DNA of 64,000 nt from Symbiodinium natans (Eukaryota; Sar; Dinophyceae; Suessiales; Symbiodiniaceae). The notes under the pieces were generated by a model. The model was given only the letters and a program-made list of their open reading frames with translations, searched no databases and was not told the origin of the DNA. Below, piece by piece: positions 3,618-46,850 of the stretch. A program made the translations under genes and the position numbers. The stretch's first letter is position 1. Every line of letters begins with the position of its first letter. Where the stretch lies: contig CAJNDS010002213.1 of assembly GCA_905221605.1 (NCBI GenBank), forward strand, positions 186,001 through 250,000. Direction: 5' to 3'.

Positions 3618-4208
3618 AAATGTCGTAAAGGGGCGTTAGTTTAAGGGACCCTAAACCCTAAACCCTAAACCCTAAACCCTAAACCCTAGGAATTTCAAAG
3701 CATAAATTGATGGCAGCGGCCAGCTGTCAAGAGCGACAGGAACTCCTTGCTTTCGTTGTAGCAGCCTTAGGGTTTAGGGTTTAGGGTTTAGGGTTTAGGG
3801 TTTAGGGTTTAGGCCCTCCGAAGGCCAGACCCTCAACCCCAAGCGCCTCAACAGCTACAAAATCCAACACATCCCCGTCAAAAGCCCTAAGCCCTAAGCC
3901 CTGCAGTCCTACAGCCCTACCACCCTACAACCCTAAACCCCACACCCTAAACCCAAAACCCCAAACCCTAGACCCCATACCCTAACCCTAAACCCTAAAC
4001 CCCAAACTTTTTATCTTCATCAATAGGGGGATATAAGGTTCTAGGGTTTAGGGTATAGGAGGCTCCAGAAACGTGGGGCTCAGCCTGCTCTCAGTAGGGA
4101 CTGAAGGAATTAGGTACCTCAGAGCTTTCTGACTTAGGGTTGGGGGTTTAGGGTTTAGGGTTTAGGGTTTAGGGTTTAGGGTTTAGGGTTTTAGGGGAAC
4201 ATATGCAC

Positions 4209-4266
4209 CTATTTCACTCATCCCCAACTCCTTAAGAGCCAGGAAGTCAAGCTTGAGCATCCATGT
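4209..4266 (-). CDS. candidate exon, minus strand
   Basis: Minus strand: acceptor acaagccctag, reading TWMLKLDFLALKELGMSEI, donor G/GTGCAT. The + strand is not convincing. Both flanks are TTTAGGG-type, so it does not follow the usual island arrangement. Confidence 0.3.
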
Positions 4267-4550
4267 CTAGGGCTTGTAGGCGTTAGGCTGTTAAAGGCCT
4301 ACTTTCGGTTTAGGGTTTAGGGTTTAGGGTTTAGGCCTACTTTCGGTTTAGGGCTCAGGGTTAAGGGTAGCTGCATCTGGGGTTTGGGGGGGTTTAAGGT
4401 CTGTTGAGGGCGTCAAGTTTCCAGAATGGCCGGCCCCACGCAAATGGACCCTAAACCCTAAACCCTAAACCCTAAACCTTAAACCCTAAACCCTAAACCC
4501 TAAACCCTAAACCCTAAACCCTAAACCAAGCCCAGACGCCTGCGAAGTAG

Positions 4551-4628
4551 AACATGGCCTGCAGCAAGGGGGGCAGTCTTCGCCTCTACACCCTGTCGGG
4601 CCCTAGCGCTGTGCTCGCCGGGTTCAAG
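4551..4628 (+). CDS. candidate exon or start exon
   Basis: It follows gcgaagtag; 26 codons containing an ATG (ACSKGGSLRLYTLSGPSAVL, then AGFK), with 20 of 25 codons ending in G or C, and a donor AAG/GTTTAGAG. Flanks are CCCTAAA (left) and a degenerate TTTAGGG (right). Confidence 0.38.
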
Positions 4629-5142
4629 GTTTAGAGCTTGAAGGGTTCTTGGGTTTCGCTAAGGTTGTAGTCTAGGGTTAAAGGGCGTTTGGGGCGAAGT
4701 GCTGGGTTTAGGGCTTTTGGGGTTAAGGTCTTAAAGTTTCTGAGTAGTGTATGGCTTCCAGGATGTTGATGGCACCTGTGCAAGATTCGTTTTTATAAGG
4801 CCTAGGGCGCAGGGCGTAGGGATGTTTAGGGTTTAGGACTTGCCGTACCATGGGCAAATATGGGCAGGTCTCTCAATCAGGGTTCCTTCTTGCAAAAATT
4901 GAGTGCCCGAATATTATGGGCACCTACCCAATAAGGAAACCGCCATGAAGTATGACCATCACATACACCTGAGCCGTAGTACGACTGTTATGAAATTTGT
5001 TTGCTCAATTTTGCTTCGCCATCGAGTTGAAGAAATGCAGGGCCCTGAATAGTTACAGTAGGGTTTGGGGAGTTATTATTGTAAATGATGACATCGGGAC
5101 CCTCAATGCATACTATATATTCGTAAGTATTCCGACTTCCGA

Positions 5143-5246
5143 AATTAGGGGTACAGTACCTTATTCAGGTCCTTGTTCTCAGGCGATCCTACTATTTGGG
5201 GGTCTATATTTGGCGTCCCCGATTTTCGTAAAGCCCCATAATACCC
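5143..5246. mobile_element. family E element, opposite orientation
   Basis: GAAATTAGGGGTACAGTACC ... GATCCTACTATTTGGGGGTC ... GATTTTCGTAAAGCCCCAT. Confidence 0.55.
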
Positions 5247-5375
5247 AACCCTAAACCCTAAACCCTAAACCTTAAACCCGATTGGTGACCTGTATCTCCG
5301 AGCGCGTGATGCGGTCGCCACGGCTGCTGAATGCCCGCGCTGCGTTCTGGAGCTCCTGCGCGGAGGCGATGCGAG

Positions 5376-5469
5376 CTTAGGGTTTAGGGTTTAGGGTTTA
5401 GGGTTTAGGGTTTAGGGTTTAGGGTTTAGGGTTTAGGGTTTAGGGTTTAGGGTTTAGGGTTTAGGGTTA
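5376..5469 (+). repeat. TTTAGGG tract
   Basis: About 13 near-perfect TTTAGGG units, directly right of a GC-rich exon-like island (5,281-5,375) that would end at A/GCTTAGGG. Confidence 0.97.
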
Positions 5470-5818
5470 GGACATTACGTCGCAGCCAGCCCAAGAACTT
5501 CGTCTCGAGTCAGGCTACGAAGTGCAGAAACCTCCCAAACAAAGCCACGCATAGGGTTAGGATTTAGCGTTTAGGGTCTCGGGTTCAGGGTCTAGAGTCT
5601 ATAGGGTGAGGTGAAACCTACGGGTTTAGGGTTTAGGGCTTAGAGTAAGGGTTTGCACGTCTAAAACAGCTTTGAGGTGTACCTGTTTGGGCTCCGGACC
5701 CACACTGCACTAAACTAAGCCCTCGCCTTCGAACACTAACTCACCCTAAACCCTCAACCAAAACCCTGCACCTAAATCCTGATCTAACCCCTCAACCCGA
5801 AACCCTGCACATAAACCC

Positions 5819-5908
5819 TGAACCCTAACCCTAAACCCTAAACCCTAAACCCTAAACCCTGAACCCTAAACCCTAAACCCTAAACCCTAAACCCTAAACC
5901 CTAAACCC
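5819..5908 (-). repeat. CCCTAAA tract
   Basis: About 12 CCCTAAA units with a CCCTGAA variant, left of the island at 5,909-6,010. Confidence 0.96.
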
Positions 5909-5960
5909 CTGGGGCCTCACGTCGAGGCACGCCCCCGCGGAGGGCGCTGAAGACGCTCAC

Positions 5961-6001: not shown

Positions 6002-6032
6002 CTGTTCAGAGTTCAGGGTTTAGCTTTGCTAT

Positions 6033-8273: not shown

Positions 8274-8340
8274 GGCGCCTGGAGTGTCCTTTTTGGCCAC
8301 CAGTCATCCAGGAAGCTGAAGCCTGACTCACAGAAGCAAG
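8274..8340 (+). CDS. candidate exon A1 of spliced gene A
   Basis: Clear acceptor: CCCTAAA repeats, then a pyrimidine tract (accacactctctctcgttcag). The 67-base island reads GAWSVLFGHQSSRKLKPDSQ plus KQ, and stops exactly at GTTTAGGG, the first unit of a 15-unit telomere-like tract. Phase 0 in (if internal), phase 1 out. No domain recognised. Confidence 0.42.
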
Positions 8341-8443
8341 GTTTAGGGTTTAGGGTTTAGGGTTTAGGGTTTAGGGTTTAGGGTTTAGGGTTTAGGGTTT
8401 AGGGTTTAGGGTTTAGGGTTTAGGGTTTAGGGTTTAGGGTTTA
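8341..8443 (+). repeat. TTTAGGG tract starting at a candidate splice donor
   Basis: About 15 perfect units; its first bases GTTTAGGG directly follow exon candidate A1. Confidence 0.97.
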
Positions 8444-8537
8444 GCGACTTGTCTGTTGAGGTTTTCAGGGTGTACCTCTTTGAGGGCCCAGGGGTTAGTC
8501 TGTTTAGGGCTTGTGGTGTTTAGGGCATCGGGTATAG
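8443..8537. repeat. second copy of the 100-bp segment
   Basis: Matches 6,145-6,245 apart from a few substitutions (for example GTGTACC for GTGTAGC). Tract and unique sequence moved together. Confidence 0.9.
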
Positions 8538-8620
8538 CTGAAACCCTGAACCCTAAACCCTAAACCCCAAACCCCGAACCCTAAACCCCGAACCCTAAAC
8601 CCTGAACCCTGCCTAGCCAG

Positions 8621-8684
8621 CCGAAGAGCGGCCCAAGACAGCGATAGAGGCAGCCCTGGAGGCTCTGGATCAGCCTCGGCATCG
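8621..8684 (+). CDS. candidate exon A2 of gene A
   Basis: The acceptor is cctgcctagccag. The island reads EERPKTAIEAALEALDQPRH and ends CG before GTTAGGGTTCAGGG. Phase 2 in agrees with A1 (the junction codon would be GCC). The opposite strand is also open (LIQSLQGCLYRCLG). Confidence 0.38.
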
Positions 8685-8687
8685 GTT

Positions 8688-8783
8688 AGGGTTCAGGGTT
8701 CAGGGTTCAGGGTTCAGGGTTCAGGGTTCAGGGTTCAGGGTTCAGGGTTCAGGGTTCAGGGTTCAGGGTTCAGGGTTCAGGGT
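8688..8783 (+). repeat. homogenised TTCAGGG variant array
   Basis: About 13 consecutive TTCAGGG units with almost no TTTAGGG. A single variant amplified in tandem points to local slippage or unequal exchange, not random decay. Confidence 0.96.
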
Positions 8784-21078: not shown

Positions 21079-24000
21079 TTAGGGTTTAGGGTTTGGGGGT
21101 TAGGGTTTAGGGTGGTAATATTTTTCGTTTGAATAGCTATAGTTCTGATGACTTCTAGCAATGCAGCATCACCACATTTAATATCAGAGCATATGGAGCG
21201 TAGGTTTGTATCCCCTGCAACCTGTATAACGCAAGCAGATGCTGACCCTATACCGTATCCTAGACCCCATCGTTTTGTTACAATTTCTAGAAGAAACGAC
21301 CTTCGTGACACAACCCCAGCCACAAGCACCAGCGACATCCGTAACCCTACGACCTCACAACCTCACATCCTATATGCCCACCCCTACCCTTTAACCCAAA
21401 CTCTCAAGCCAACCAATAATTTCAACCATCCAAAACACAAAACCACCTCCCAAAATACGCACACAGATTCACGACACAATTCTCAATCCGAACTGCCTCC
21501 TCAACATGCATACAAGGATTCCAAAAATATCCCCCCCCCCCCAAAAAAAAAAAAACAAAAGCACCCCGTAAATGCTTCAGCGAACCCATTTCTCTGCAAG
21601 GCCCTGGGGTTAGGGACCCGAAAAGGAAACCGGGATCTTAACCCCGAAACCCACAACACGGCCAGGAATACTGCATAACCAGGAAGAGCACCTGTCAAGT
21701 TCATGGATGGGCGACTTGCGTTTAGGGCGTAGGGTGTCCGGTTTAGGGCCTGTTGCGTGGGTCTAGAGGTGCCATCAAGAGGCTTAGAGTTGTGGCTTCA
21801 GCATGCTTCGAAAAATAGTTTGGATTTAGGGGTTAAGGGTTTAGGGTCCAAAACCCTAAGCCCTAAAGCCTAAACCCTAAACCCTAAGGGCCAGCCCCGA
21901 AACCCTCTTTGGGAGTTGTGGTCCTGGGTGCAGGAGATTGGATAGTCCTTCTGAGCTTATCTCACAAGGGATGCCTGATAATAGCCGCAACTGCTAAGGA
22001 AAGTATAGTCCAGAGTTTAGGACACCAACTCCCTTCAAACACGAATAACCAGTCTGCCCGTGAATGGGGCATTTTCAACGTGTCGGTGGTGGGTCTCAGA
22101 GCTACGGTGGAGATTCAGGATTTGAGGTTTGACATTCCATTTGAATTTGTGCACTTGCCGCAAGTCGGATGAACAATGGGCGGGGAAATCGTGCAAACTA
22201 GTTGTTAACACGAAAGAGGAGGCTGACACGAGCCCTCCTAAACCACATAAAGCCCTAAACCCTAAACCCTAAAGCCCGCCTGCGCGCAAACGATGTCAGC
22301 CCTGCCCACCACGTAGCAGATGCTCTCGGTGTGCACAGGGTGAGTGGCGAACCTGCGCGGGTCGTTTCAGGCTTCGAGATGTAAGATGGTGTTTGGGCAT
22401 GAAAGCTTAGGCTTTCGGTGCTCCATTCGCGAACCCGAGCCTGCTAATGCATGTCTTATACCCTAAACCCTATGATAAAGCCCATAAACCATAAACCCTA
22501 TAAACCCATAAACCCTATCCTGTAAACCCTATAAACCCTAACAAACCCTGTTAACCCTGTAAATCCTATAAACCCTACAAACCCCATAAACCCTATAGAC
22601 CATAGCCCTAAACCCTGATGCCTGGTAGTTGCCCCATCAACCCGAATCTGATCTGGGGCCCAAGAGCCTGGCGAACCCTAAAACCAGTTCAGGGTTTAGG
22701 GTTGACGCTCGAAGTCTTGCAGCTGTTCTTGCAGATCATTAAGGCTAAGAGCTGCAGCTATAACCAAGATGGCCGTAGGGATGTAGGTTTAGGGCTTGCA
22801 AGCCTACACGCTATAACCCTAAAACCCTCAAGCACCCCAAAAGCCCCAAAAGAAACTCTAAGAACCCTGCAAAACGAACAACAAACTGAAGCCCCATAGT
22901 CCTAAGCAACCCGCAGCACGGGCGAAGCGGTGGGGGCTAGCGCACAAGGCCGCCAAGAGCCTGGGAGATGGTCTCGGAAGCAGGAAAGAGGTGCTTCGGG
23001 CGTTTCGGCTCGAGGCTCGTGGGATTAGAGGGTTTAGGGGGTTTAGAGGGTTTGCATGGGGTTTAGAGGGTTTGCATGGGGTTTAGAGGGTCTATGGGGC
23101 TTGGAGAGTTTAATTAGAGTGTTTTGAGGGTTTAGGGTTAGACACGTCCTAGCTTCTGAGCCATTTTAGGTGTTTTTGTTGGGGGAGAGGGGGTGGCGGG
23201 GGGATGAGGGGTGGGGGTGGGGTGGGGAGTTTGTGGCCAAGGGGGGTTTCTCACTCTCCACTTTTTTTGCGAGCCAGGGAAGCTATGGGGGCTAGGGGCT
23301 TGTGCTTCTAGATCTCTGGATCAAGTGCTGCCAAGGGAAACCCCTGAAGTCAACGCAAGTTCAGGGATTAGGCTTTAGGGTGGAGGGTTTAGCAGGCTCC
23401 TCAATCTACTTTAAGGAATCTTCCTCCATCAAGCGGCTTTGGGAAGTTCAGGTCATCTAGATCCCCCCTGGGCTTAGGTAGGGTCTTGGGTCGTTTAGGG
23501 TAACTGAGAGGTAAAGGTTTCTCCAAGCAGATTGTGTACTAAGCTCACCACGCAGCAAAGGCCCAAGGGAGCTGACAGGCCTGTCGTGTATAGCTTTGAG
23601 GGTCTTGGGGGGTGGAGCGTGGAGAAGGGCCTCCCGCAAACTCATGCCCAAGACCCGAACCCTAACCCCAAAACACCTAAACCCACAGCCCCAAGGCCAC
23701 AAAACAAAGCTCGGCAAGTCCCTAATCCAGACAACAAGCCTTTAAGCACTCTAAACCCCACACGCAAACCCCGCAAGCCCTCAAATCCCCTCGGCCCTAA
23801 ACCGCAAACCCAAACCTTTCTAAACCCTAAACCTTATAATTATAAACCCTAAACCCTAAACCCTAAACCCTAAACCCTAAACCCTAAACCCTAAACCCTA
23901 AACCCTGAACCGCCCTCAAGCTGTTGCCACAAAACCCTTGAGATGATCTGGACGTAGGGGTCTTTGGGGTTCTTGGCGTGCGGTACGGGTTGAGGGAGGG

Positions 24001-25805: not shown

Positions 25806-25905
25806 GGGATGTTCCAACCTTCTCATGACAGTCCTTAATGGGGATTGCAATAGAAGGTACTAAAAATCCCTATTCAGGAGCTGCTAGTATAAGGGGGAAC
25901 ATCCC
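25806..25905. mobile_element. family A element
   Basis: GGGATGTTCC ... GCTAGTATAAGGGGGAACAT CCC; both arms present, about 100 bp, with internal AGTCCTTAATGGGGATT. Confidence 0.65.
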
Positions 25906-26298
25906 ACGGCCCAAGCCGTAAACCTGAACTCCTGCCAGCCTTCGACCCTGAGAGCCAGGCCGGAAAGTCAGCACAGTCAGTGGTCGAAAGGACCTGAGTC
26001 ACGGGGAAGGGTTTAGGGTTTAAGGTTTAGGGTTTAGGGGAAGTAAAAGAGTTTAGGCTTTAAGGGTCCTGGGTCCCAGCGCCGGGGAAGGAAAGTGCGT
26101 AAAAGGGAACCTAACCCCAAAGAAAGTGGCAGTAGCATCGGTGGAAGTACGGAACCAAATAAAGGGGGTGTTAACAATTAGAATCGGGGATTGGGGCTTA
26201 TAATCGTATACATAGTTATAAAGGGACCATACAGGGATACCATCAGACTTTATGCCGATCCCTAGATTACGTGAGCTCAGGGCTTCGAAACACGAGTC

Positions 26299-26935: not shown

Positions 26936-27108
26936 AATCAGAGAGTTTGCTTAGGATGTAGGGTTGAGGGCTGACGGTTTAGGGTTTAAGGGTCTACGGT
27001 CTACACTTCCCCGCGCAATCCGAGCACCCAACTTGTGGGTCCATGTGTTGGGGTCAAACATCTCCAAACCCCAGTAGTCCGTCCTCCAGAGCCTCTGCAG
27101 AATGCGCA

Positions 27109-27234
27109 GGTTTAGGGTTTAGGGTTTAGGGTTTAGGGTTTGGGGTTTGGGGTTTGGGGTTTGGGGTTTGGGGTTTGGGGTTTGGGGTTTGGGGTTTGGG
27201 GTTTGGGGTTTGGGGTTTGGGGTTTGGGGTTTAG
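27109..27234 (+). repeat. TTTAGGG passing into a homogenised TTTGGGG array
   Basis: Four TTTAGGG units, then about 14 pure TTTGGGG units ending again in TTTAGG. The long glycine/phenylalanine ORF across it is an artefact. Confidence 0.96.
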
Positions 27235-28869: not shown

Positions 28870-28938
28870 ATGGCGTCATCCATGAAGAAGCCCCCGGTCT
28901 CCATATTGAAGTCCAGGACCTCGGGGGTTTCGTGGCGG
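28870..28938 (+). CDS. candidate first exon of spliced gene B
   Basis: ATG at 28870 opens 23 codons (SSMKKPPVSILKSRTSG is visible) ending CGG at 28938. The next bases are GTTTGGAGGGTTTAGGG, a GT donor at the start of a TTTAGGG-type tract. The island has CCCTAAA repeats on its left (28,770-28,823) and TTTAGGG variants on its right. The opposite strand is also open for about 19 codons, so strand is likely but not certain. Product unknown; the N-terminus is basic. Confidence 0.4.
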
Positions 28939-29731: not shown

Positions 29732-29827
29732 ACGGAGAAGTTGAGGAGGCAGCGGGCCTATAGGCTGCCATCGAGGCGCCTGAGCTCCAAGCTTCCGATG
29801 TGTCAGGATCAGAGTTCGGATTCTAGG
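29732..29827 (+). CDS. candidate exon 2 of gene B
   Basis: It follows ...cccgcacaag and ends AGG before GTTTTAGG. The 96 bases give 32 codons (TEKLRRQRAYRLPSRRLSSK begins it). Only this one of the three + frames is open, and it is the frame required by the phase-0 end of the preceding exon. That is the best single piece of support for the chain. The peptide is strongly Arg/Ser-rich. Confidence 0.42.
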
Positions 29828-30519
29828 GTTTTAGGTTGAGGGTTTGAAGGTTTGGCGAGGGAATCGGACCCAGACTACAAGGCTTTGGGCCGGGTATATG
29901 GTTTAGAGTGTCTTTTGGATCGTATTTGAGGTGCACTGCAGAGAAGGGAATCCGCTCATTACGTTCTGTTGGGGGCACGCTCTACACTAAGGTCTCCAAA
30001 ACCTAAAGCAAACCCCAGACCTGACAGTTCTCTACGTCATGTTCATGGATTCTCAAGACACTGGGCTATTGGGTGCCCAGGGCTTTTGGGTGCCCGGGAC
30101 TTAGGGTTTAGATGCTGATGAAGCCCAAGCCCACAAGCTTAGACGCCTTCAACCCATGTGGAACCATGAGCCGTAACTTTAAGCCAGCACTCCCAAGAGG
30201 AGCCTGAACTTATTACCTTGGAGGACCAGGCTCCGTATTGCCACCGGTACGTACCCCAAAAGATCTCTGATTTTTATAAACTTTAAAGGAGGGCATGCCG
30301 GTAGACCCAAAGCCCAGATCCACCCCTTGTGCACCCAAACATCCGCTTTATTCAGAGTACCTCTGGAAAAAAGGTTTAGAGGTTTAGGGTTCGGGCTATT
30401 TGGGGGGGAACCCGAATTTGGAACCTCCATATTGAGGTGTGAACCAACCATCACCAGCGGCAGCAATGCCGCGGCCGAGAAGACTCCTGTGCAACCAGGC
30501 GCTGCCAATAGGGGTCTAA

Positions 30520-30786: not shown

Positions 30787-31122
30787 ATATCCCAAAACCA
30801 AAGAGCGCACATCCACTTCGTTGCTTTTCTTCCGCAGACAGCATCAGTTGCTCCTATTACCTTACTTCTTCAACAACCAAGGAATTAGCAGGTTAAGCTG
30901 TATTATTCCTACTAGATACGGAAACCCAAAAAGGTTGCAGTTACTCTAAACCCTAAACCATAAACCCTAAACCCTCAACCCTAATTAAACCCTAAACCCT
31001 AAACCCTAAACCCTAAACCCGAAACCCTAAACCCTAAACCCTAAACCCTAAACTTAACCCTAAACCGGGTTTCAACTCCGGGCCACATCCCGTCCTGCTT
31101 CTGTCCGCTCGCCGTTGCTCAG

Positions 31123-31193
31123 GGCTCCCTCTCGCTTCGGGGACTCGGGAACGTACTCGCTGTAGTCCCCGTCCCCCTGGCTTGGAGTGGTGG
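31123..31193 (+). CDS. candidate exon 3 of gene B
   Basis: Preceded by a pyrimidine-rich acceptor (ttctgtccgctcgccgttgctcag) and followed at once by GTTTAGGG. Phase 0 in, phase 2 out. The peptide contains LGNVLAVVPVPLAW, a possible membrane segment. The minus strand of the same island is also open (GDGDYSEYVPESPKREG), so the strand rests on the splice signals and on phase with neighbours. Confidence 0.38.
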
Positions 31194-31778: not shown

Positions 31779-31839
31779 GGCACCTCGCTGGCTTCGCCGG
31801 GAACCGCCCCCGTCTGCAGCAGTGACCAAGCCTGGGTCG
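31779..31839 (+). CDS. candidate exon 4 of gene B
   Basis: The acceptor is ...cctgggccag. The phase-1 frame reads APRWLRREPPPSAAVTKPGS, and the exon ends TCG before GTTCAGGGG, a TTCAGGG-variant donor. Phase agrees with the preceding exon (2 out, 1 in). A second possible donor lies at GAG/GTTTAGGG about 20 bases further on. Confidence 0.35.
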
Positions 31840-32981: not shown

Positions 32982-33057
32982 GAAACCCCCATGTCTGGGA
33001 CTCTGGCCACGATGGCTCGCGCCACTGTTGGCGGCACCTGTGCCGCTCATCAGCAGG
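32982..33057 (+). CDS. candidate exon 6 of gene B
   Basis: It follows gggtttcacag and ends AGG before GTTTTACC. All three + frames are open. Phase 1 (GLWPRWLAPLLAAPVPLISR at its end) fits both neighbours. Evidence comes from splice-site placement and chain phase only. Confidence 0.3.
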
Positions 33058-33512: not shown

Positions 33513-33534
33513 ACCCTAAATACATGTTGCATTT

Positions 33535-37853: not shown

Positions 37854-38189
37854 CAAAATCGGTTGGCACGATACGGAGACATGTGACGAAGCAGACGAAC
37901 TGCTCTGGTGCAAGAACTAGCAGGGCTTCTGTAAAAAGTTAAAGTTAGAACCCGAGCCCCTTAACCGCAACCGCACGGCCCCCGGCCCCCAATTCTAGTT
38001 CCTGCTTTTCTGTACAACGAACTTAAACCTTACACCATGTAAACCCTAGACTCATTCTTTGTGTAACCGTTGAAGTTATGTCAACTTCCCGCAAGTGGCT
38101 CGCATGCCTTTTCCTCCACAGAATCCTCTGTCTGCCATGGCCATGTTGCGCTCTGATCTTCGGGGGCTGTCCTGCGTTTAGGGCTTGGG

Positions 38190-38440
38190 TCCCCTAAACC
38201 CTATAAACCCTATAAACCCTATAAACCCTATAAACCCTATAAACCCTATAAGCCCTATAAACCCTATAAACCCTATAAACCCTATAAACCCTATAAACCC
38301 TATAAACCCTATAAACCCTATAAGCCCTATAAACCCTATAAGCCCTATAAACCCTATAAACCCTATAAACCCTATAAACCCAATAAGCCCTATAAACCCA
38401 ATAAGCCCTAATAAAACCCTACATATAAACCCTATGACCT
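38190..38440 (-). repeat. CCCTATAAA nine-base array
   Basis: About 25 units of a nine-base telomere derivative (CCCTATAAA, some CCCTATAAG), identical in the second block at 50,817-51,067. Smaller arrays of the same unit occur at 22,450-22,600 and 29,600-29,710. Confidence 0.96.
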
Positions 38441-38461
38441 AGCATTGGAGCCCTTGCTCAG

Positions 38462-38512
38462 GCCGCCACGGGAAGGATGAATGCGGCTTCCATTGAATCC
38501 GCAAGTCCTTCG
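38462..38512 (+). CDS. candidate exon C1 of spliced gene C (copy 1)
   Basis: The acceptor is ggagcccttgctcag and the exon ends TCG before GTCTAGGGTTTAGGG. Seventeen codons read ATGRMNAASIESASPS, phase 0 both ends. An identical copy is at 51,089-51,139. The left flank is a CCCTATAAA array, the right flank TTTAGGG. Confidence 0.4.
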
Positions 38513-38908
38513 GTCTAGGGTTTAGGGTTTAGGGTTTAGGGTTTAGGATTTAGGGTTTAGGGTTTAGGGGTCAAGGGTTTAGGGTTTAGGGTAATTAAAG
38601 GGTTTGGGGTTTGGGGTTAAAGGGTTTAGGGTTTTTAAGTTCGAGGTTCCGGGGATGTTGCTTTGCTCGGAAGTTGAAGACCCCGGCCTCGGCCTGCGAA
38701 CCCAAACCCTCACGATCGAGGGTTCCTTCTCTAAGGGAGGGGTTCGGGATTGGGACCCTAAACCCTAAACCCTAAACCCTAAAACCCTAAACCCTAAACC
38801 CTAAACCCTGAACCCTAAGCCCTGAACCCTGAACCCTAAACCCTAAACCCCTAAACCCTCAACCGGTGTAATATGAGAGAACGACGCAGCAACTCTCCCC
38901 CCCTCCAG

Positions 38909-38973
38909 GCTCCTTCTGGAAGATTGCGAGCGACGGCGCGTGCCTTCAAAGCGGACACCTGGCATGCGCCCAG
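38909..38973 (+). CDS. candidate exon C2 of gene C (copy 1)
   Basis: One of the best splice contexts in the window: gcaactctccccccctccag, then 65 bases, then CAG/GTTGAGGG. Phase 2 reads SFWKIASDGACLQSGHLACA; phase 0 (APSGRLRATARAFKADTWHA) is also open. Copy at 51,536-51,600. Confidence 0.42.
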
Positions 38974-40038
38974 GTTGAGGGCTTTTAGGGTTTCTAGGGG
39001 CTTTTAGGGTCTCTAGGGTCTTTAGGGGTTAGGTTTAAGGTTAGGGCTTTTAGGGTTTCTAGGGTTTTTAGGGTCTCTAGGGTCTTTAGGGTTTTGAGGG
39101 GTTAGGTTTAAGGTTTAAGGTTTCGGGTTCTAGGGTTCTAGGGTTTGGGGTTTAGGGCGTTTAGGGGGGGGGGGGGGGGGTTAGGGACCCTAAACCCTGA
39201 ACCCTGGCCCCACATCCCAAGAAAGATAGCACTGGAAGATGTGACTGCAATCTCAGGAGCTATACTGTTATTTGATATTTGAGGTACAGTACTGAACTTC
39301 TAAGAACTACCTACGAACTTCCCTGAGCCCAACTTTTCAATTTGACCAGGGAGGGAGGGGAGGGGGCAATCCAGACTCATCAAACACCCAGGAATCGCAG
39401 ACCCTAAGCCCCACACCCTACGCCCTACACCCTACGCCCTAAACCCTAAGTCCTAAACCCGAAACCCCTAAACCCTAAACCCTAAACCCTAAACCCTACA
39501 CCCGACCGCCCTGGCCTCCGGCGCACGCCCTGGCTCGTACAGGTTTTTGGGTTCGGTCGCACTCTTGTTTTGAGGTTCCCTTGCCGTGTAGCGCGTTTTG
39601 GGTTGAGGGGAGGGGGGGGGGGGGGGGGGGGGGGGTTAAGGGCTTGAAGACATTTGGGGCGGTTTAAGGGGTTTCTGGAGTAGGGTTTAAGGTGAGGTTA
39701 GCGCGTTTTGGGTTGAGGGGGCTTAAGGGCTTTAAGGGCTTCAGGCGGCTTAGGGGGATTCTGGTTTAGGATTTGGAGTTTAGGCTTTGGGGGGTTGAGG
39801 GTGCTTAAGGGCCTTTGGGGTTTACATAGGGTTCAAAAGGCCGCTGAGAGTAGGGCTCCGACTTGGGTCTTCTGAAACATCGCTGAAGGGTGAGGGGGGG
39901 AGATGCCGAGGTCTCGAGCACACGACATTCTGAACTCTGAGGGCCAAAGACTGTAAGGAGCAAAAGAGGGTTTAGGGTTTAGGGTTTAGGGCTTCGGAGA
40001 TCAGGTACACATCCAAACCTTTCTGCCCGAAGCCCCAG

Positions 40039-40087
40039 CATTCCTGCATGCAGCTGCCGGCATGTTCCTCGGACGTCGGACATCAAG
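40039..40087 (+). CDS. candidate exon C3 of gene C (copy 1)
   Basis: Pyrimidine-rich acceptor (cctttctgcccgaagccccag), reading HSCMQLPACSSDVGHQ to CAAG/GCCACC, a GC-type donor (dinoflagellates are known to use GC donors). The minus strand is also open. Copy about 12,638 bases downstream. Confidence 0.3.
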
Positions 40088-40243
40088 GCCACCCGAAACA
40101 GACCCTGCAAGCCCTACACCCCCAACCAACCCTAAACCCAACCAACCCTAAACCCTAAACCCTAAACCCTAAACCCTAAACCTTAAACCGCAGACCCTGA
40201 ACCCGACACCCTACACCAAAAACCGAAGCGGCACCTGTTCCAG

Positions 40244-40302
40244 GCGCGTCGGCAAGGCAGCGGAGACACCTCCAGGGGCTTTGGGGGCGTTGTGACTCAC
40301 GG
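40244..40302 (+). CDS. candidate exon C4 of gene C (copy 1)
   Basis: The acceptor is gcacctgttccag. It reads ARRQGSGDTSRGFGGVVTH and ends GG before GCTTAGGG, so a CTTAGGG telomere variant would supply a GC donor. A GT alternative lies inside (GTT/GTGACT). Confidence 0.33.
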
Positions 40303-40830
40303 GCTTAGGGTTCAATATTTAGGGTTTGGGGTTTAGGCTGTAGGGTTCAGGATTTAGGGTTCAGGATTTAGGGGCTGGGACTTAGGGTTTGGGATTTAGG
40401 TTACAGGATTTCGGGTTGGCCTTTTGACTGTGAGACTCAAGGACACTCAAGTCGTAGATGGTTGCTGTGGGTCCTGGGTCCAGGTTCGAGGGCAATCATA
40501 TCTACATATCGACATACAACTACATCTTTTGCATTCGCCTAAGCCCTAAACCCTAAACCCCAAACCCTTAAAGGGATGCTGAGGGTGCTCGGGTCTAAGC
40601 TATTGGTCAGCCAGGGGCTCCCGTCAAGGAACCTTCGTGTCGTGATGCTCTTTGGACCGTTAGGGTTAAGGGTTAAGGGTTAAGGGTTAAGGGCTAAGGG
40701 TTAAGGGTTTAGGGTTTAGGGTGTTGGGTTTAGGGTTTAGGGCTCGTATCTAGACCCACGAATCGCCTAGGGATAGAAAGGGTCTACTTTGTGAACCTAA
40801 ACCCTAATCCCATACTCAGAACCAGTAACT

Positions 40831-40945
40831 TTCTAGGCCCAAGAGTGGCCAGGGAATAGAAAGGGTGCCCTTTTTGGTTTAAAGGGGCTTATGAGGGAAC
40901 CCAAACCCTAAAAAAGGGAATAAGGGCCGACTCTGGGTCCCTAGT
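40831..40945. mobile_element. family C element, best copy
   Basis: Terminal inverted repeat CTAGGCCCAAGAGT / ACTCTGGGTCCCTAG, with extended flanks CCAGTA ... TACTGG. A partial copy lies just left (40,747-40,800). Duplicated at 53,469-53,583. Confidence 0.7.
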
Positions 40946-41072
40946 ACTGGCTCTTAGGAGGGAATTCCAGACCTCCAAAAAACACCCGAAGCCATCCTAA
41001 ACCCTAAACCCTAAACCCTAAACCCTAAACCCTAAACCCTAAGCCCGAAGCCCGAAACCCGAAACCCTAAAC

Positions 41073-41159
41073 CCGAAGCCATGATGGCTCGGCGGGGCGC
41101 CGATTGGTGCTTTTGCTCGCCACGGCAAAGACGGCGAGGCCACCGTAGGAAGGGATCTC
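41073..41159 (-). CDS. candidate exon, minus strand preferred (copy 1)
   Basis: On the minus strand, ccagagatcag is followed by 87 bases (29 codons, EIPSYGGLAVFAVASKSTNR, then RPAEPSWLR) ending CGG directly before GTTTAGGG, with clean phase 0 at both ends. The + strand is also open (GRRLVLLLATAKTARP, donor GTAGGA) and would suit gene C. Copy at 53,711-53,797. Confidence 0.36.
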
Positions 41160-41638
41160 CTGATCTCTGGCTCAGGAATTTCTGTTTTCATGGGGGGTAG
41201 CAGGCTTCAGCAAGGTTTTCTTGGTGTTTACTAGTTGCACCACCAGGAGCCCTCACAAGGGACCCCTAATTTTGAGAAACCCCGCTAGGGCTTTGGTAGG
41301 GCGGAAGTCCTGCAGACCTTCTAAACCCCCCTGAACCCCCCCAAACCCGTGGATTTAGGGATTGAACGCTTCGAGCTGAGGCCCCTGGCGGCTGTGTAGG
41401 CGCGAGCCATGCTGAAGCCAGCCTCCAGAAGTATGAGTTCACCCTAAACCCTAAACCCTGAACCCTAAACCCGAAACCCGAAACCCTAAACCCTAAACCC
41501 GAAACCCTAAACCTTATTGTGGGGGCTAAGCCCTATAAGCCCAAAGCCTCTTCCTGTGCTTCCTGGTGGTTCCTTCAGGTTCGGATCCAGGGGCATGCGT
41601 GCCCACTACAATCTTTAGGGGTTTACAGCTTTAGGGGT

Positions 41639-41720
41639 GGGATGTTCCCCCTTAAACTAACCGTCCTTAGCAGGGATTATAATAGGGGGGTAGGACTGTT
41701 AGTATAAGGGGGAACATCCC
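41639..41720. mobile_element. family A element, type copy
   Basis: Terminal inverted repeat GGGATGTTCCCCCTTA(A/T)ACT / AGTATAAGGGGGAACATCCC over 82 bp, too short to code. The second block carries the identical copy at 54,277-54,358. Confidence 0.75.
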
Positions 41721-41780
41721 AAAATTTTGGGGTTTAGTTTCTTGTTTGAGGGTGGGGGGGTTGGCTTGCAGGGCTTAGGG

Positions 41781-41903
41781 CCTAAACCCTAAACCCTAAA
41801 CCCTAAACCCTAAACCCTAAACCCTAAACCCTAAACCCTAAACCCTAAACCCTAAACCCTAAACCCTAAACCCTAAACCCTAACCCTAAACCCTAAACCC
41901 TAG
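41781..41903 (-). repeat. CCCTAAA tract ending in a candidate acceptor
   Basis: About 17 units; the last is CCCTAG, read as the 3' splice site of exon candidate C5. Copy at 54,419-54,541. Confidence 0.96.
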
Positions 41904-41992
41904 ACTCCCACGGTGAGCCGGACGATGCCTCGGCCAGCCGTGCAAGGCCAACTGCCACTGAGGGGGAGAAGGCCAGGCCGTCTGGACGCCTC
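41904..41992 (+). CDS. candidate exon C5 of gene C (copy 1)
   Basis: The acceptor is the last, variant telomere unit itself (ccctaaaccctag). The island reads SHGEPDDASASRARPTATEG, then EKARPSGRL, and ends CTC before GTTTCGGGTTTAGGG. The acidic/polar, Ala-rich composition looks protein-coding. Copy at 54,542-54,630. Confidence 0.42.
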
Positions 41993-42558
41993 GTTTCGGG
42001 TTTAGGGTTTAGGGTTTAGGGTTTAGGGTTTAGGGTTTAGGGTTTAGGGTTTAGGGTTTATCAGGATCGGCAGACATGACCGCGAACCGGTTTTAGGGTG
42101 TTGTGGATGGTGTGTATATATCGATGTACATATCTATGTATTTATTGACCACAACTCTTGGTAGCCCACAAAGGAAACTACACTTGCGGAGGTCTGGGTA
42201 AAATCTGAATCCGAGAGCCTAGACAGCCAACCCCTAATCTGTGGCCTAGGCCCCAAACTCAGTCTTTCGGGCTAAGGGATTCCAGGGCCTAATCTCAAAA
42301 ACAAAACCCAAGGGTTTAGGGTTTAGGGTTTAGGGTTTAGGGTTTAGGGTTTAGGGTTTAGGGTTCAGGGTGTAGGGTTTAGGGTTTGGGGTTGAGGGTT
42401 TAGGATACCCTGCAGCCCCGAAGCCGTTCCCTAGGTGCTCCCAAAGCCCGAGATGCACGAGCCCACCCTAAACCCTAGACCCTAGACCCTAGACCCTAAA
42501 CCCTAAACCCTAAACCCTAACCCGAAACCCCAAACCCTAAACCCTAAACCCTAAACAG

Positions 42559-42647
42559 TGACTGCTCCACATGCTTCCACGGGGCACGACGCAGGCACCA
42601 AGCTGTGTGGAGAGAATGCCGTCATCCTTCAGGCGGTGCAGGCCTGA
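42559..42647 (+). CDS. candidate terminal exon of gene C (copy 1)
   Basis: The acceptor is again telomere-derived (ccctaaaccctaaacag). Phase 2 reads TAPHASTGHDAGTKLCGENA then VILQAVQA to a TGA at 42645-42647. Phase does not match C5 directly, so an exon may be missing or a splice site misplaced. Copy at 55,197-55,285. Confidence 0.4.
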
Positions 42648-42671
42648 GTCTACAGCGGCTTTGGGAATATC

Positions 42672-42752
42672 TATTCAACCCAAACCCCTAAACCCCTAAA
42701 CCCCTAAACCCCTAAACCCCTAAACCCCTAAAACCCTAAACCCCTAAACCCT
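42672..42752 (-). repeat. CCCCTAAA eight-base array
   Basis: About nine units of an eight-base variant. A similar array with more variants lies at 24,815-24,915. Copy at 55,310-55,390. Confidence 0.94.
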
Positions 42753-43148
42753 TGGGGGGCGCTTCTTGGGGTGCAGGGCTTGGAGCTAACTTTAGAGTGT
42801 GCATTTTGGGGATTGCGCGGTTTTTTGGGGGGCATGCGACCCTCTAGGAGTTGGCTGAAGCCCGCTCCTGGCACAGGCTCTGTGGTGGAGGGCTCTGAAG
42901 AGGGAGTTTGCCGGTTTAAGGAGTTTAGGGTTTAGGGTTTAGGGTTTCAGGGTTTAGGGTTCTGAAGAGGGAGTTTGCCGGCTTAAGGAGTTTAGGGGTT
43001 AGGATGTAGGGTTTAGGGCTGCTTTCCTGCAGCCTGTAAGTGGTAACTATTCCTTCTCAAAGAGCTCCAGAAGTTCGTGATTGATTCTCTACCCAAAAGC
43101 CCTAAACTTCAAACCCTCAAGCGCCTAACCCCCCCCCCCCCCCCCAAG

Positions 43149-43226
43149 AGCCGGCAGGTCTCAAAGCTTGTGGGGCTTTGCGCGGCCAGGAGCCGGACAG
43201 CCAGCAAAGAAGCTCTTGCCCCACAG
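43149..43226 (+). CDS. candidate exon of an unknown gene (copy 1)
   Basis: It follows a 17-C run and aag, reads SRQVSKLVGLCAARSRTASK and EALAPQ, and ends CAG before GTGATCAC. The frame is open for 116 codons around it only because of the adjacent poly-C/proline tract. Copy in the second block. Confidence 0.36.
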
Positions 43227-43524
43227 GTGATCACTCCTGCGCAAACGGGGCCGCGGAGGCCTGGTGAGAGCAGTGGCTTCGCGGGCCCACACCCTCCGAA
43301 AACAAAAACAAGGCCGGAAGATTCTGGTCACGGGGATCCCCCCCCCCCCCCCCCCCCCCTAAACCCTCAACCCCCGACCTTTCCTCCAAACAAAAAAGAG
43401 TTTCGGTTTCGGAGCCTTGGAATATAAACTTCCCTACTTAAGATCCTGTCCTGGCCCTGCGGCATCTGGACCTTGAATCCCTCTAAGACCCTAGATAAGG
43501 CCCCAAGGTAGAGCCCGCTCCTTC

Positions 43525-43576
43525 CTCGGGCATTCCCCATGTCCGTGCCATCCACGAGGATGGCATCGAAGTCGCC
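43525..43576 (-). CDS. candidate exon, minus strand (copy 1)
   Basis: Minus strand: the acceptor is agcctgtatcag and the reading is GDFDAILVDGTDMGNAR, with almost all third positions G/C, then GAG/GAAGG, a possible GA-type donor. The frame stays open to 43,367 but with a poorer codon pattern. The + strand is not protein-like, so the strand call is fairly good. Copy at 56,156-56,207. Confidence 0.4.
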
Positions 43577-44626
43577 CTGATACAGGCTATTTGGGCGAGA
43601 GATCAGGACGATCGTTGCTTAAGCTTAAGGCGCTGTCTTGCCCCTAAAGTTTAGTAAGGGTTTAGGGTTCGTCTCGAAACCCAAAGCCCTATAAACCCGA
43701 AACCCTAAATTCTAAATAACAGGGTTTAGGATGACCTCATAAAGATTATATGGGCGAAGGAACACCCCAGAAGCCGTCTCCAGAGTATACCCTAAACCCT
43801 AGACCCTAAACCCCAAACCCAAAACCCTGAAGCCGCTTCTTGGGCACTTCCTGGGCTCATCTTGCGGGGGGTTGGGCTTCGGGCCTGTCAAAGATGTAGT
43901 TTAGGATTTGGGGGTTTAAGGTTTAGGGGTTAGGAGTTTAGGAGTTTAGGAGTTTAGGGGTTTACCGGTTTAGCCGTTCAGGGGCTTTGGGGTTAGGGGC
44001 TATAGAGGCTTTGAGATTGAGGTGGGCAAGGGCTAAGGGCTTAGAGTCTCTTGTCGTGCCCAAAAGCCAAGAATCCCATGCGCTTAAAGCTCCCATGAGG
44101 TTTGCTTCCCGGCTGAGCTGGGATTACACGGACCTTTCTTGGCAAGCAACAAGGCTCAACAAGCAAACGCTTCCACGGAAATGGGCCCAAATCCCCGACC
44201 CCCCGGAACGTTCATGTCGAAAAGCTCCGAAGGCTATATACCCGACAACATTCGACCCCTGAACCCCCTTAAACCTTGAACCTTGAAATCCTGAAGCCCC
44301 ATTAACCTATGCGTTTCTCAGTAGGGATTAAGGGGCTTAGGGACCTTTCACCGGCTCTTTTTCCCCCTCACTCCCTGCTCAGACCCAGTAAGAATCACCT
44401 ACTGCAGTGGTATAGGGTTGAGGGTTTAGGGTTTAGGGTTTGGGGTTTGGGGTTCAAGTTCTAACTGCAGCTTCAGCCAAGCCTGTGGCCAGTTCCGGAA
44501 TTCGGCCGCATCTGCCTCGGTCCCATATGGGGGGTGTGTACTCTGCCCTATATCAACCCTGAAACCCTGAAACCCCAAAACCCTAAGACCCTAAGACACT
44601 AAACCCTAAACCCTAAACCCTCTATA

Positions 44627-44715
44627 GCAAGGGCCCGTACTTCGACTCCCAATAAACAAGGGTAAGGGGCCATACTGAGGGGCCATGGCTCCAACCTATA
44701 GAAACCTCGAAGGTG
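44627..44715. mobile_element. family F element, right part
   Basis: AGGGCCCGTACTTCGACTCC ... GGCCATACTGAGGGGCCATG, next to CCCTAAA repeats. Copy in the second block. Confidence 0.5.
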
Positions 44716-44962
44716 TGCTACTGGGTACCGGTTTCAAGACGCCCAAACTCCACGGCCCTGAAACCCAGCGTGGGAGTTTAAGGGCTTTAGAAGCGGTTTA
44801 GAGTTTTAGGGCCTGGGGTTTCGAGTCAGGTCAAGGATAAGGAAGCTATGCCTTTGCCCCAAACCCCAAGAGCCCGATCCCCTGAGGCACCCTAAACCCT
44901 AAACCCTAAACCCTAAACCCTAAACCCTGAACCCTGAACCCTAAACCCCCTAAACCCGGAAG

Positions 44963-45042
44963 CAACCTCACCGTGGACACTTGCATCCTGAACACTGAGC
45001 ACCTTGAGTCTGTCCTGAAGTCGGTTGAATGTGCTGCTTCGG
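44963..45042 (+). CDS. candidate exon of an unknown gene (copy 1)
   Basis: CCCTAAA-type flank, acceptor acccggaag, 80 bases reading NLTVDTCILNTEHLESVLKS then VECAAS, donor G/GTCCTC. It looks helical and soluble. The other strand has stops. Copy at 57,594-57,673. Confidence 0.42.
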
Positions 45043-45258
45043 GTCCTCTAAGACCACGAAACCGCAAGCTCTAACCTGCTCTAAACTCACTGCCCAAACC
45101 CCCAAACCCTAAACCCTAAACTCCAAACCCTGAACCGTGCTAAACTTTTAAGTCTTGCCCAAGGCGCAGCAATCTCGGTGACCCTTGCGTCACCCAGAGC
45201 CCACCCTTGCGCTGGAAGGAACCTCCAGGAATAGGTTCAACCCTAAACACCATAACTT

Positions 45259-45353
45259 GGGATGTTCCCCGTATACTAACAGTCCATACTAGGGATCTAC
45301 TAGTCCTGTTTCGGACTGTTAATATATATATATATATAAGGGGGAACAGCCCC
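45259..45353. mobile_element. family A element with AT expansion
   Basis: Left GGGATGTTCCCCGTATACTA, right arm interrupted by (TA)n between ACTGTTAA and AAGGGGGAACA. Copy at 57,890-57,984. Confidence 0.65.
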
Positions 45354-45529
45354 AGCTATAACTTAAACCGGAATGTAGGCTCAGAGATTGTGATTCACGG
45401 CCAGGTCTTGGCAGCCGGTTTACAGGGCTTTGGTTCCCACATGTGTACATGAAGATCCCAATTTCGGATTCGCATTTAAAAAAACACTGTAGCGAGAAGG
45501 TGGTTGTTGTGTGACTAAACACATAAGCT

Positions 45530-45594
45530 GGGATGTTCACCCCTTATACTAATAGCACCACCTACTATGATCCCTACTAGGGACTGTTGGTATC
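45530..45594. mobile_element. family A element, second copy nearby
   Basis: GGGATGTTCACCCCTTATAC to GGGACTGTTGGTATCCC, about 180 bp from the previous copy and abutting CCCTAAA repeats. Copy at 58,161-58,225. Confidence 0.6.
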
Positions 45595-45633
45595 CCTAAA
45601 CCCTAAACCCTAAACCCTACACGTAAGTGCCAC

Positions 45634-45842
45634 CTGCGGGCAGCTTTCCCGACACCCGGATCGATGTCGATGATGTAGACTTCCCCGGCCTCGGGCTTGC
45701 GCGCAGCAGCATCAGCATCAGCATCAGCATCAGCATCAGCATCAGCATCAGCATCAGCATCAGCATCAGCATCAGCATCAGCATCAGCATCAGCATCAGC
45801 ATCAGCATCAGCATCAGCATCAGCATCAGCATCAGCATCAGC
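45634..45842 (-). CDS. candidate exon with an Ala-Asp dipeptide run (copy 1)
   Basis: Minus strand: about 22 GCTGAT hexamers would encode (Ala-Asp)n, followed in the same frame by AARKPEAGEVYIIDIDPGVG and KAAR, then a donor CGCAG/GTGGCA. The unique 70 bases look coding. The + strand is also open (FPDTRIDVDDVDFPGLG plus Ile-Ser repeats), so strand is uncertain. The long ORFs that run on through the CAG array are repeat artefacts. Copy at 58,265-58,473. Confidence 0.35.
45711..45842. repeat. (CAGCAT)n hexamer array, copy 1
   Basis: About 22 perfect hexamers, same number at 58,341-58,473. It joins the unique exon-like sequence 45,634-45,704 to the CAG-rich array. Confidence 0.97.
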
Positions 45843-46850
45843 CAGCAGCCAGCAGCCAGCAGCCAGCAGCAGCCAGCAGCAGCCAGCAGCAGCCAGCAGC
45901 AGCCAGCAGCAGCCAGCAGCAGCCAGCAGCAGCCAGCAGCAGCCAGCAGCAGCCACCAGCAGCCAGCAGCAGCCAGCAGCAGCCAGCAGCAGCCAGCAGC
46001 AGCCAGCAGCAGCCAGCAGCAGCCAGCAGCAGCCAGCAGCAGCCAGCAGCAGCCAGCAGCAGCCAGCAGCAGCCAGCAGCAGCCCGCAGAAGCCAGCAGC
46101 AGCAGCAGCAGCCAGCAGCAGCCACAGCAGACAGCAGCAGCCAGCAGCAGCCAGCAGCAGCCAGCAGCAGCCAGCAGCAGCCAGCAGCAGCCAGCAGCAG
46201 CCAGCAGCAGCCAGCAGCAGCCAGCAGCAGCCAGCAGCAGCCAGCAGCAGCCAGCAGCAGCCAGCAGCAGACAGCAGCAGCCAGCAGCAGCCAGCAGCAG
46301 CCAGCAGCAGCCAGCAGCAGCCAGCAGCAGCCAGCAGCAGCCAGCAGCAGCCAGCAGCAGCCAGCAGCAGCCAGCAGCCCAGCAGCAGCCAGCAGCAGCC
46401 AGCAGCAGCCAGCAGCAGCCAGCAGCAGCCAGCAGCAGCCAGCAGCAGCCAGCAGCAGCCAGCAGCAGCCAGCAGCCAGCAGCCAGCAGCCAGCAGCCAG
46501 CAGCCAGCAGCCAGCAGCCAGCAGCCAGCCAGCAGCCAGCAGCCAGCCAGCAGGCAGCAGCCAGCACAGGCAGCAGCCAGCAGCAGCCAGCAGCCAGCAG
46601 CAGCCAGCAGCCAGCAGCAGCCAGCAGCCAGCAGCAGCCAGCAGCAGCCAGCAGCCAGCAGCCAGCAGCCAGCAGCCAGCAGCCAGCAGCCAGCAGCCAG
46701 CAGCCAGCAGCCAGCAGCCAGCAGCCAGCAGCCAGCAGCCAGCAGCCAGCAGCAAGCAGCCAGCAGCCAGCAGCAAGCAGCAAGCAGCAAGCAGCAAGCA
46801 GCAAGCAGCAAGCAGGACGTAGCAAGCAGCAAGCAGCAAGCAGCAAGCAT
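45843..46850. repeat. CAG-rich array (CAGCAGC / CAGCAGCCAG), copy 1
   Basis: Mixed 7- and 10-base units of CAGC and CAGCAGC, degrading at the right into CAAGCAG and AAGTAGT. It shares the landmark CAGGCAGCAGCCAGCACAGG with the array at 58,474-59,559, which places the copy boundary further right. Alanine/glutamine/serine ORFs of up to 918 codons come purely from the repeat. Confidence 0.97.

Follow-up and report, generated by a model that had tools for sequence, protein, structure and literature searches.

Tandem tracts of the telomere motif at internal sites, many of them intronic, are described in mammals as interstitial telomeric sequences (ITSs). One such account places 31% of human ITSs in introns, a share that fits random insertion, and poses their effect on splicing as still to be tested (PMC7215372). 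Inverted repeats near the two intron ends are described for the introners of Amoebophrya and Prorocentrum cordatum (PMC7789003, PMC10666404), and such repeats are included in the introner definition given by Farhat et al. (PMC7789003). The introns of Symbiodiniaceae are non-canonical, with GC, GT or GA donors and AG/G acceptors (the slash marks the splice junction); the values listed for Symbiodinium natans are GC 58, GT 23.6 and GA 18.4%, with AGG at 97.1% (Table 2 of PMC10666404). The present work concerns a stretch of 64,000 nt of the S. natans genome (contig CAJNDS010002213.1; hereafter the window), in which tracts of TTTAGGG, given as the dinoflagellate telomere unit in PMC11453091, and of its complement CCCTAAA lie in the introns of a minus-strand TMTC-like gene and are oriented with respect to its exons. 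They resemble mammalian ITSs in being tandem tracts at internal sites, many of them intronic, and differ from them in making up an estimated 4.4% of the genome and in the orientation bias close to exons. With dinoflagellate introners they share inverted repeats near the two intron ends; unlike in introners, the motif is telomeric, the repeats lie off the exact ends, the two ends are independent, and repeat-free introns exist at the same positions. For S. natans, full-length transcripts have been produced (PMC8045281). The string "telomer" is absent from the main text of that genome paper, those parts of the Symbiodiniaceae intron literature that were examined make no mention of oriented telomere-motif tracts, and no report of such tracts oriented at dinoflagellate splice sites was found in the accessible portions of the open-licence literature.

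Exact heptamers occur in the window 520 times as TTTAGGG and 487 times as CCCTAAA. In the assembly (759,417,921 bases in 2,543 contigs), the 14-mer (TTTAGGG)2 is found 1,788,098 times in the forward and 1,787,600 times in the reverse orientation, compared with 257 and 280 for the reversed control. The genome share of ~4.4% for (TTTAGGG)n is an estimate, obtained by applying to the genome-wide matches the number of bases that one match covers in the window; the window itself, with 7.8%, lies above it. As tandem telomere-type units at internal sites, the tracts are ITSs in the accepted sense. The G+C content of positions 1-45,700 is 50.9%. At 8,691-8,780 and 27,139-27,230, pure runs of the variants TTCAGGG and TTTGGGG lie beside TTTAGGG runs, which would fit a local expansion of each variant.

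Orientation was analysed in 100 homology-modelled introns of 11 genes, 27 from the TMTC-like gene and 73 from dynein heavy chain genes at ten loci of the same genome (PF12774 loci), for which uninterrupted paralogous frames of that genome served as queries. Of 230 dynein alignment segments, 100 passed the score filter, and the 73 introns are those between consecutive passing, contiguous exons. Gene structure varies among the dynein heavy chain loci L024-L036: at one extreme there is an uninterrupted frame of 3,242 codons, at the other there are genes whose exons measure ~20-80 nt. The donors of the 100 introns are GC in 54, GT in 29 and GA in 17, and AG/G is present at 97 acceptors, as in the non-canonical introns of Symbiodiniaceae and as is characteristic of dinoflagellate spliceosomal introns; the 27 TMTC introns contribute GC 16, GT 9 and GA 2, with AG/G in 25. 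The donor set (GC/GT/GA) and AG were constraints of the alignment, to which a small AG/G bonus was added. Omitting this bonus leaves all 33 introns of the TMTC region in place, and with any donor allowed 23 of the 33 are retained.

Read in the sense direction, these introns tend to run donor...TTTAGGG...CCCTAAA...AG/G. Within 75 nt of the acceptor, CCCTAAA is present in 33 introns and TTTAGGG in 4, whereas within 75 nt of the donor TTTAGGG is present in 33 and CCCTAAA in 16, one intron being allowed to count for both motifs. Against a 1:1 expectation, p is 1e-6 at acceptors and 0.021 at donors; against the mix found in the intron interior, which has an excess of CCCTAAA, the values are 1.9e-4 and 5e-7, respectively. 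The claim of the earlier note on this DNA that opposed telomere-like tracts lie near both intron ends is thus upheld, above intron-interior controls. The bias is confined to short distances. In the 64 introns of at least 250 nt, the ratio of TTTAGGG to CCCTAAA (G:C) is 10:1 at 0-25 nt from the donor, and that of C:G is 11:0 at the same distance from the acceptor; at 125-400 nt the ratios are 23:24 and 19:18, the bias fading beyond ~125 nt. The motif is hardly present in introns shorter than 250 nt (36 of 100).

Adjacent tracts separated by 30-200 nt show the orientation bias only where an exon lies between them. In those of the 11 genes that bear repeats (five: TMTC, L027, L028, L030, L032), the orders with an exon in between are CG 28, CC 5, GC 3 and GG 2, compared with CG 21, GC 23, CC 21 and GG 21 where there is none (Fisher p 3.4e-7).

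The explanation that we consider probable is that spliceosomal introns with GC/GT/GA donors and AG/G acceptors were invaded by ITSs whose orientation was then filtered by splicing. Tracts would enter introns in both orientations, and splicing would select among them next to exons. A TTTAGGG tract upstream of the 3' splice site would present a decoy acceptor, TTTAG/GG, every 7 nt, and the acceptor-side bias would arise because each unit carries this decoy while CCCTAAA carries no G, and so no AG, GT, GC or GA; CCCTAAA would be tolerated before the acceptor, whose immediate flank it sometimes forms. Downstream of donors, TTTAGGG is favoured, perhaps through G-run enhancement. Computation here shows the homology-based intron structure, the bias near exons, its dependence on exons, its fading with distance, the repeat-free paralogous introns and the depletion of AGG; that splicing acts as the selective filter, and that break repair or telomerase brought the repeats in, is inferred. 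The depletion was observed in 44 repeat-free introns, where the 42 nt before the acceptor contain 12 AGG compared with 26.0 expected (Poisson 0.002) and 4 [CT]AGG compared with 12.9 (Poisson 0.004), while AGG is not depleted after the donors (37 vs 31.6) or in mid-intron (68 vs 59.3) of the same introns.

The gene of the window is TMTC-like (DUF1736), and its modelled part, at 11,980-33,037 on the minus strand, comprises 28 consecutive exons of 15-73 nt each. Two joined minus-strand islands (15,000-15,109 and 12,376-12,500) match Pfam family PF08409, TMTC_DUF1736, the family of O-mannosyltransferase TMTC, with 28.6 bits (E=1.4e-6, cut-off 27); extending the join to a third island gives 26.9 bits, slightly below the cut-off, a single 30-aa exon alone has no Pfam match, and a PDB search found nothing. 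A protein search yielded 25 homologues, including named proteins of Effrenium voratum and Durusdinium trenchii as well as transcript-derived proteins, and tblastn located the individual exons of the gene on the minus strand. Spliced alignment to homologue P0001 gave the 28 exons, from 33,037 down to 11,980; 28 of 43 alignment segments were kept, the other 15 (10 upstream, 5 downstream) having been dropped by judgement as chance matches. With homologues P0002 and P0003 as queries, 20 and 14 of the 33 introns of the region are recovered exactly. Spliced alignment of other N-termini, together with tblastn, placed none of the first exons confidently and identified no gene at 38-43 kb. Other DUF1736 loci of the genome, L001-L004, lie within open frames that span 572-782 codons, in contrast to the window's gene with its 28 exons. 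Four further exons match a downstream domain of the Effrenium voratum homologue P0013 and were left out of all counts; CCCTAAA precedes the acceptor in 2 of them and TTTAGGG follows the donor in 2. The exons, two example introns and two long tracts are as follows.

33,008-33,037, minus strand: exon PPTVARAIV, donor GC; spliced alignment, tblastn 75% identity
32,602-32,661, minus strand: exon GYSCGVSRPFADCTPAETRI, CCCTAAA 39 nt upstream of acceptor; spliced alignment
31,784-31,831, minus strand: exon AWSLLQTGAVPGEASE; tblastn and spliced alignment
31,113-31,176, minus strand: exon GDGDYSEYVPESPKREGALSN, CCCTAAA 18 nt upstream of acceptor, TTTAGGG 48 nt after donor; spliced alignment
30,799-30,828, minus strand: exon EKQRSGCALF, the weakest in the model, which may be wrong; spliced alignment
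30,445-30,486, minus strand: exon VFSAAALLPLVMV; tblastn and spliced alignment
29,754-29,779, minus strand: exon ASMAAYRP; spliced alignment
28,861-28,919, minus strand: exon VLDFNMETGGFFMDDAMIR; tblastn and spliced alignment
28,244-28,282, minus strand: exon NAVVVDTTLDLR; tblastn and spliced alignment
27,033-27,092, minus strand: exon LWRTDYWGLEMFDPNTWTHK; tblastn and spliced alignment
25,961-25,993, minus strand: exon SFRPLTVLTFR; tblastn and spliced alignment
25,403-25,454, minus strand: exon WNYLAHGFGNCGFHLTN; tblastn and spliced alignment
24,940-24,990, minus strand: exon ALLHGLCSWQLAIFGRQ; tblastn and spliced alignment
23,552-23,580, minus strand: exon ACQLPWAFA; tblastn and spliced alignment
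22,946-22,960, minus strand: exon LLAAL, 15 nt; spliced alignment
22,280-22,352, minus strand: exon FATHPVHTESICYVVGRADIVCAQ, donor GCGGGC, TTTAGGG from 6 nt into the intron; spliced alignment
21,672-21,691, minus strand: exon VLFLVM; spliced alignment
20,927-20,970, minus strand: exon LYAPLSTAGRSLSQ; spliced alignment
19,661-19,722, minus strand: exon QAWLRLILACILIVAAGLCK, donor GA; tblastn and spliced alignment
19,102-19,143, minus strand: exon ETGFTFFGLLVIWE; tblastn and spliced alignment
18,327-18,354, minus strand: exon VLALFRGKL; spliced alignment
16,976-17,001, minus strand: exon FSVQRLIR; spliced alignment
16,143-16,176, minus strand: exon VFGLLALGSAA; spliced alignment
15,525-15,576, minus strand: exon ATRVWYTSGTQIARMD, CCCTAAA 10 nt upstream of acceptor; spliced alignment
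15,029-15,100, minus strand: exon YSNPIAASDDPYVRVLSYALVHG, CCCTAAA 9 nt upstream of acceptor, TTTAGGG 36 nt after donor; Pfam and spliced alignment
14,044-15,028, minus strand: example intron, TTTAGGG 36 nt after donor, CCCTAAA 30 nt before acceptor
14,009-14,043, minus strand: exon YLKLLVWPVFL, acceptor CCCTGAAG/G; spliced alignment
12,495-14,008, minus strand: example intron, TTTAGGG 40 nt after donor, acceptor built from CCCTAG
12,448-12,494, minus strand: exon YDYSMDAVPLVHSME, repeat-derived acceptor CCCTAAACCCTAG/G; Pfam and spliced alignment
11,980-12,008, minus strand: exon DVRLMLPVA; spliced alignment
8,613-8,655, minus strand: exon GCLYRCLGPLFGWL, P0013 downstream domain, TTTAGGG soon after donor; tblastn and spliced alignment
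8,277-8,322, minus strand: exon FSFLDDWWPKRTLQ, P0013 downstream domain, CCCTAAA just upstream of acceptor (the 8,341 site discussed below); tblastn and spliced alignment
4,540-4,558, minus strand: probable exon AMFYFA, P0013 downstream domain, TTTAGGG soon after donor; spliced alignment
3,729-3,765, minus strand: probable exon, P0013 downstream domain, acceptor CCCTAAACCCTAAG/G; spliced alignment
14,289-14,475, plus strand: CCCTAAA tract of 22 exact units, within a minus-strand intron
8,342-8,446, plus strand: TTTAGGG tract of 14 exact units, which reads CCCTAAA upstream of the minus-strand acceptor at 8,322

The spliced alignment supports the earlier note in its reading of the repeat-bearing stretches as introns, here of a dinoflagellate gene. 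The note had further placed the donors inside GTTTAGGG and taken the plus strand as the coding strand, and neither agrees with the modelled gene, which is encoded by the minus strand. None of the 100 modelled donors is exactly GTTTAGGG, and 3 have no more than two mismatches. When only GT is allowed as donor in the TMTC region, the alignment score drops from 1672 to 1222 and 3 of 32 donors fall in GTTTAGGG; with any donor allowed there is none. Of the 100 acceptors, 9 fit a loose, ad hoc heptamer-like pattern, few of them convincing. No gene was identified at 41,903 and 42,558, where the note saw acceptors derived from the repeat; an acceptor of this type is modelled on the minus strand at 12,494 (CCCTAAACCCTAG/G). 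The letters at the ten positions proposed as plus-strand donors do match, given the variants TTTGGGG (32,693), TCTAGGG (38,513) and TTTCGGG (41,993). The sites at 8,341, 15,109, 31,194 and 32,693, however, lie 9-32 nt upstream of minus-strand acceptors, and those at 16,752 and 18,615 lie inside introns of the minus-strand gene; the remaining four (9,299, 38,513, 38,974 and 41,993) are not assignable to a modelled gene. Such a misreading of the strand is possible because the C-exon-G pattern reads alike in both directions.

The order of the tracts themselves agrees with what had been noticed from the letters. Pairs of neighbouring tracts at a distance of 60-200 bp, CCCTAAA on the left and TTTAGGG on the right, number 42 in positions 1-45,700, compared with 24.8 +/- 3.6 (largest 39) in 5,000 shuffles of the labels, while the opposite order, TTTAGGG then CCCTAAA, gives 25 pairs, equal to chance. 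Elsewhere in the genome (172.5 kb), islands of 60-200 bp number 83 in the first arrangement and 44 in the reversed one, with 52.3 +/- 5.0 (largest 71) of the former expected from shuffles. This sample consists of 18 stretches, of which 3 adjoin the window, 1 was chosen for a TMTC paralogue, and the others are blindly picked positions; tract load differs by locus, 2 of the 18 having two tracts or none. The 42 islands of the window are also GC-rich, as had been claimed, with a mean GC of 0.60 compared with 0.50-0.54 in the other three arrangements. They are not unusually open: a stop-free frame among the six is present in 37 of the 42, and shuffled sequence gives 36.9 +/- 2.2. Openness equals that of shuffled sequence and was dropped as evidence of coding. 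Codon-usage scoring of the islands was too weak for exon finding (90 segments; two controls 68 and 53), although it led attention to the TMTC motif.

An introner origin, in which the introns would be mobile elements whose terminal inverted repeats carry the telomere motif and whose insertion made the intron, is very unlikely. Inverted repeats do lie near both ends of some introns, in a manner comparable to the arrangements described in PMC7789003 and PMC10666404, and 39 of the 51 intron positions in ten aligned dynein paralogues are seen in one paralogue only and fall outside a test by shared position. At 8 of the 12 positions common to at least two genes, however, an intron with 7-71 heptamers in one gene has a counterpart in the same phase with none in another, the repeat-free copy measuring no more than 132 nt at 7 of these 8; an introner origin is contradicted there. 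After residue 27, for example, an intron of 1267 nt carries 69 heptamers, while those of 53 and 68 nt carry none, and after residue 162 an intron of 724 nt has 11, compared with none in those of 65 and 56 nt. The comparison is between paralogues of one genome. Since position and phase are shared, such an intron must be old, its repeats having been gained later or lost; the introns at these positions were not created by the repeats. Moreover, TTTAGGG tracts within 100 nt of the donor begin 6-72 nt into the intron, not at its end, and the inverted repeats at the two ends do not form one unit, as their orientations are independent. We also give little credence to the tracts as scars of broken ends that were capped by telomerase and rejoined, a doubly capped fragment then reading CCCTAAA-fragment-TTTAGGG. 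Such capping would give the C-exon-G order on both sides of the exon, donor included, without splicing, and mammalian ITSs are described as arising at double-strand breaks (PMC7215372). The same order would be predicted at non-exonic islands, where the four arrangements are flat (see above), and capped fragments were rejected on this ground as the cause of the orientation. They may still be a source of tracts, for which break-repair insertion appears to be the likeliest route.

The earlier note had proposed that opposed TTTAGGG/CCCTAAA tracts at the two intron ends pair in the RNA and join donor and acceptor. Arrangements suited to such pairing are frequent: in 20 of the 64 introns of at least 250 nt, the tract nearest to the donor is G and that nearest to the acceptor is C, both within 100 nt, and with a limit of 150 nt at each end 24 of 100 introns have G by the donor and C by the acceptor. 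Introns with a tract of either orientation at one end also tend to have one at the other (Fisher 1e-12 to 7e-17), because genes differ in repeat load. Orientation does not follow: within 100 nt, acceptor C:G is 20:4 in introns with G at the donor and 11:0 in those with C, the end-to-end association (Fisher p 0.14-0.28) has the wrong direction, and inverted ends number 23 compared with 25.3 +/- 2.4 in within-gene shuffles. Since, in addition, a tract has its nearest complementary partner on the far side of the exon (median loop 130 nt) and not of the intron (571.5 nt), pairing across introns is very improbable. Hairpins formed by the repeats that flank an exon, with the exon in the loop, would aid exon definition or the formation of circular RNAs. 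All 25 exons that are flanked within 150 nt by C on the upstream and G on the downstream side do fold with 21-119 enclosing pairs, as they would because the repeats are complementary. The ratio of G to other downstream tracts at 150 nt is 24:5 when C is upstream and 7:6 otherwise (Fisher p 0.066), but the same test gives 0.27 at 100 nt and 0.48 at 75 nt. Inverted flanks number 25, compared with 23.1 +/- 2.0 when shuffled within genes and with 24.9 when the exons considered are those with tracts on both sides, and such hairpins are a very unlikely cause. As the two intron ends are thus not coupled and the exon flanks are coupled little, a local cause is left.

Splicing as the filter on orientation is such a local cause, and several observations weigh against it. 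Plain AG is not depleted before the acceptors of repeat-free introns (117 vs 98.8), nor is there an excess of G-runs near their donors (GGG 50 vs 51.8). Decoys leave the donor side unexplained, since CCCTAAA would be equally free of them there and TTTAGGG is nevertheless preferred; measured against the intron-interior mix, the donor preference is no weaker than that at acceptors. Some strand-wide bias toward CCCTAAA exists in the sense direction, with C over G at 15:4 in the bins of 400-2000 nt (both sides summed); the interiors of the TMTC introns of the window also show this excess. From random interior positions of longer introns, C is found within 75 nt ahead in 28.1% and G in 13.4%, and within 75 nt behind in 24.3% and 15.2%, respectively. 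Exon-holding pairs show an excess of CG no longer when separated by more than 200 nt, the CG order being present in 2 of 11 at 200-500 nt and in 1 of 7 at larger distances, and TTTAGGG lies within 75 nt of 4 of the 100 acceptors. Intronic repeat load varies among genes between 0 and 41 heptamers per kb, and introns free of repeats include long ones (950 and 789 nt); given this uneven load and these long introns, insertion itself may favour one orientation close to exons. Finally, all junctions in the analysis derive from protein homology. A different role for splicing, conceivable though unlikely, is that the telomere motif was co-opted genome-wide as a splicing signal, CCCTAAA acting as a branch or pyrimidine region and TTTAGGG as a donor enhancer. 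If that were true, G-runs or G-quadruplexes would enhance weak GC/GA/GT donors, and part of the telomere-like DNA of the genome would be a functional splicing code.

Several other features are present in the window. A segment of 7.9 kb occurs twice, at 38,009-45,900 and 50,636-58,531, with 99.8% identity, no mismatches and 3 gap openings; the second copy adjoins a gap of 100 N at 50,536-50,635, and the repetition is probably an assembly duplication. Elements of ~80-100 bp with inverted ends, GGGATGTTC...GAACATCCC, which on our reading may be MITE-like, are located at 25,806-25,905 and 41,639-41,720, with single ends at 19,486, 33,535, 45,259 and 45,530, and their ends recur through the window. 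A tandem repeat of ~30-40 bp (GCCCACTTTTGAGGCC...) occupies 12,540-13,080 within a TMTC intron, and long satellites, consisting of CAG/CCAGCAG-type and AGTAGTAAGT-type arrays, extend over 45,700-48,300 and 58,340-59,560. An uninterrupted minus-strand frame of 1,208 residues at 60,000-64,000 looks to us like a candidate retroelement.

The dependence of the orientation bias on exons fits splicing as a filter on the insertion of repeats. A telomere-motif inverted repeat near intron ends need not be an introner, and reading such introns without homology can choose the wrong strand, because the pattern looks alike on both. With its millions of repeat units, the genome of S. natans makes the effect of intronic telomeric repeats on splicing directly testable.

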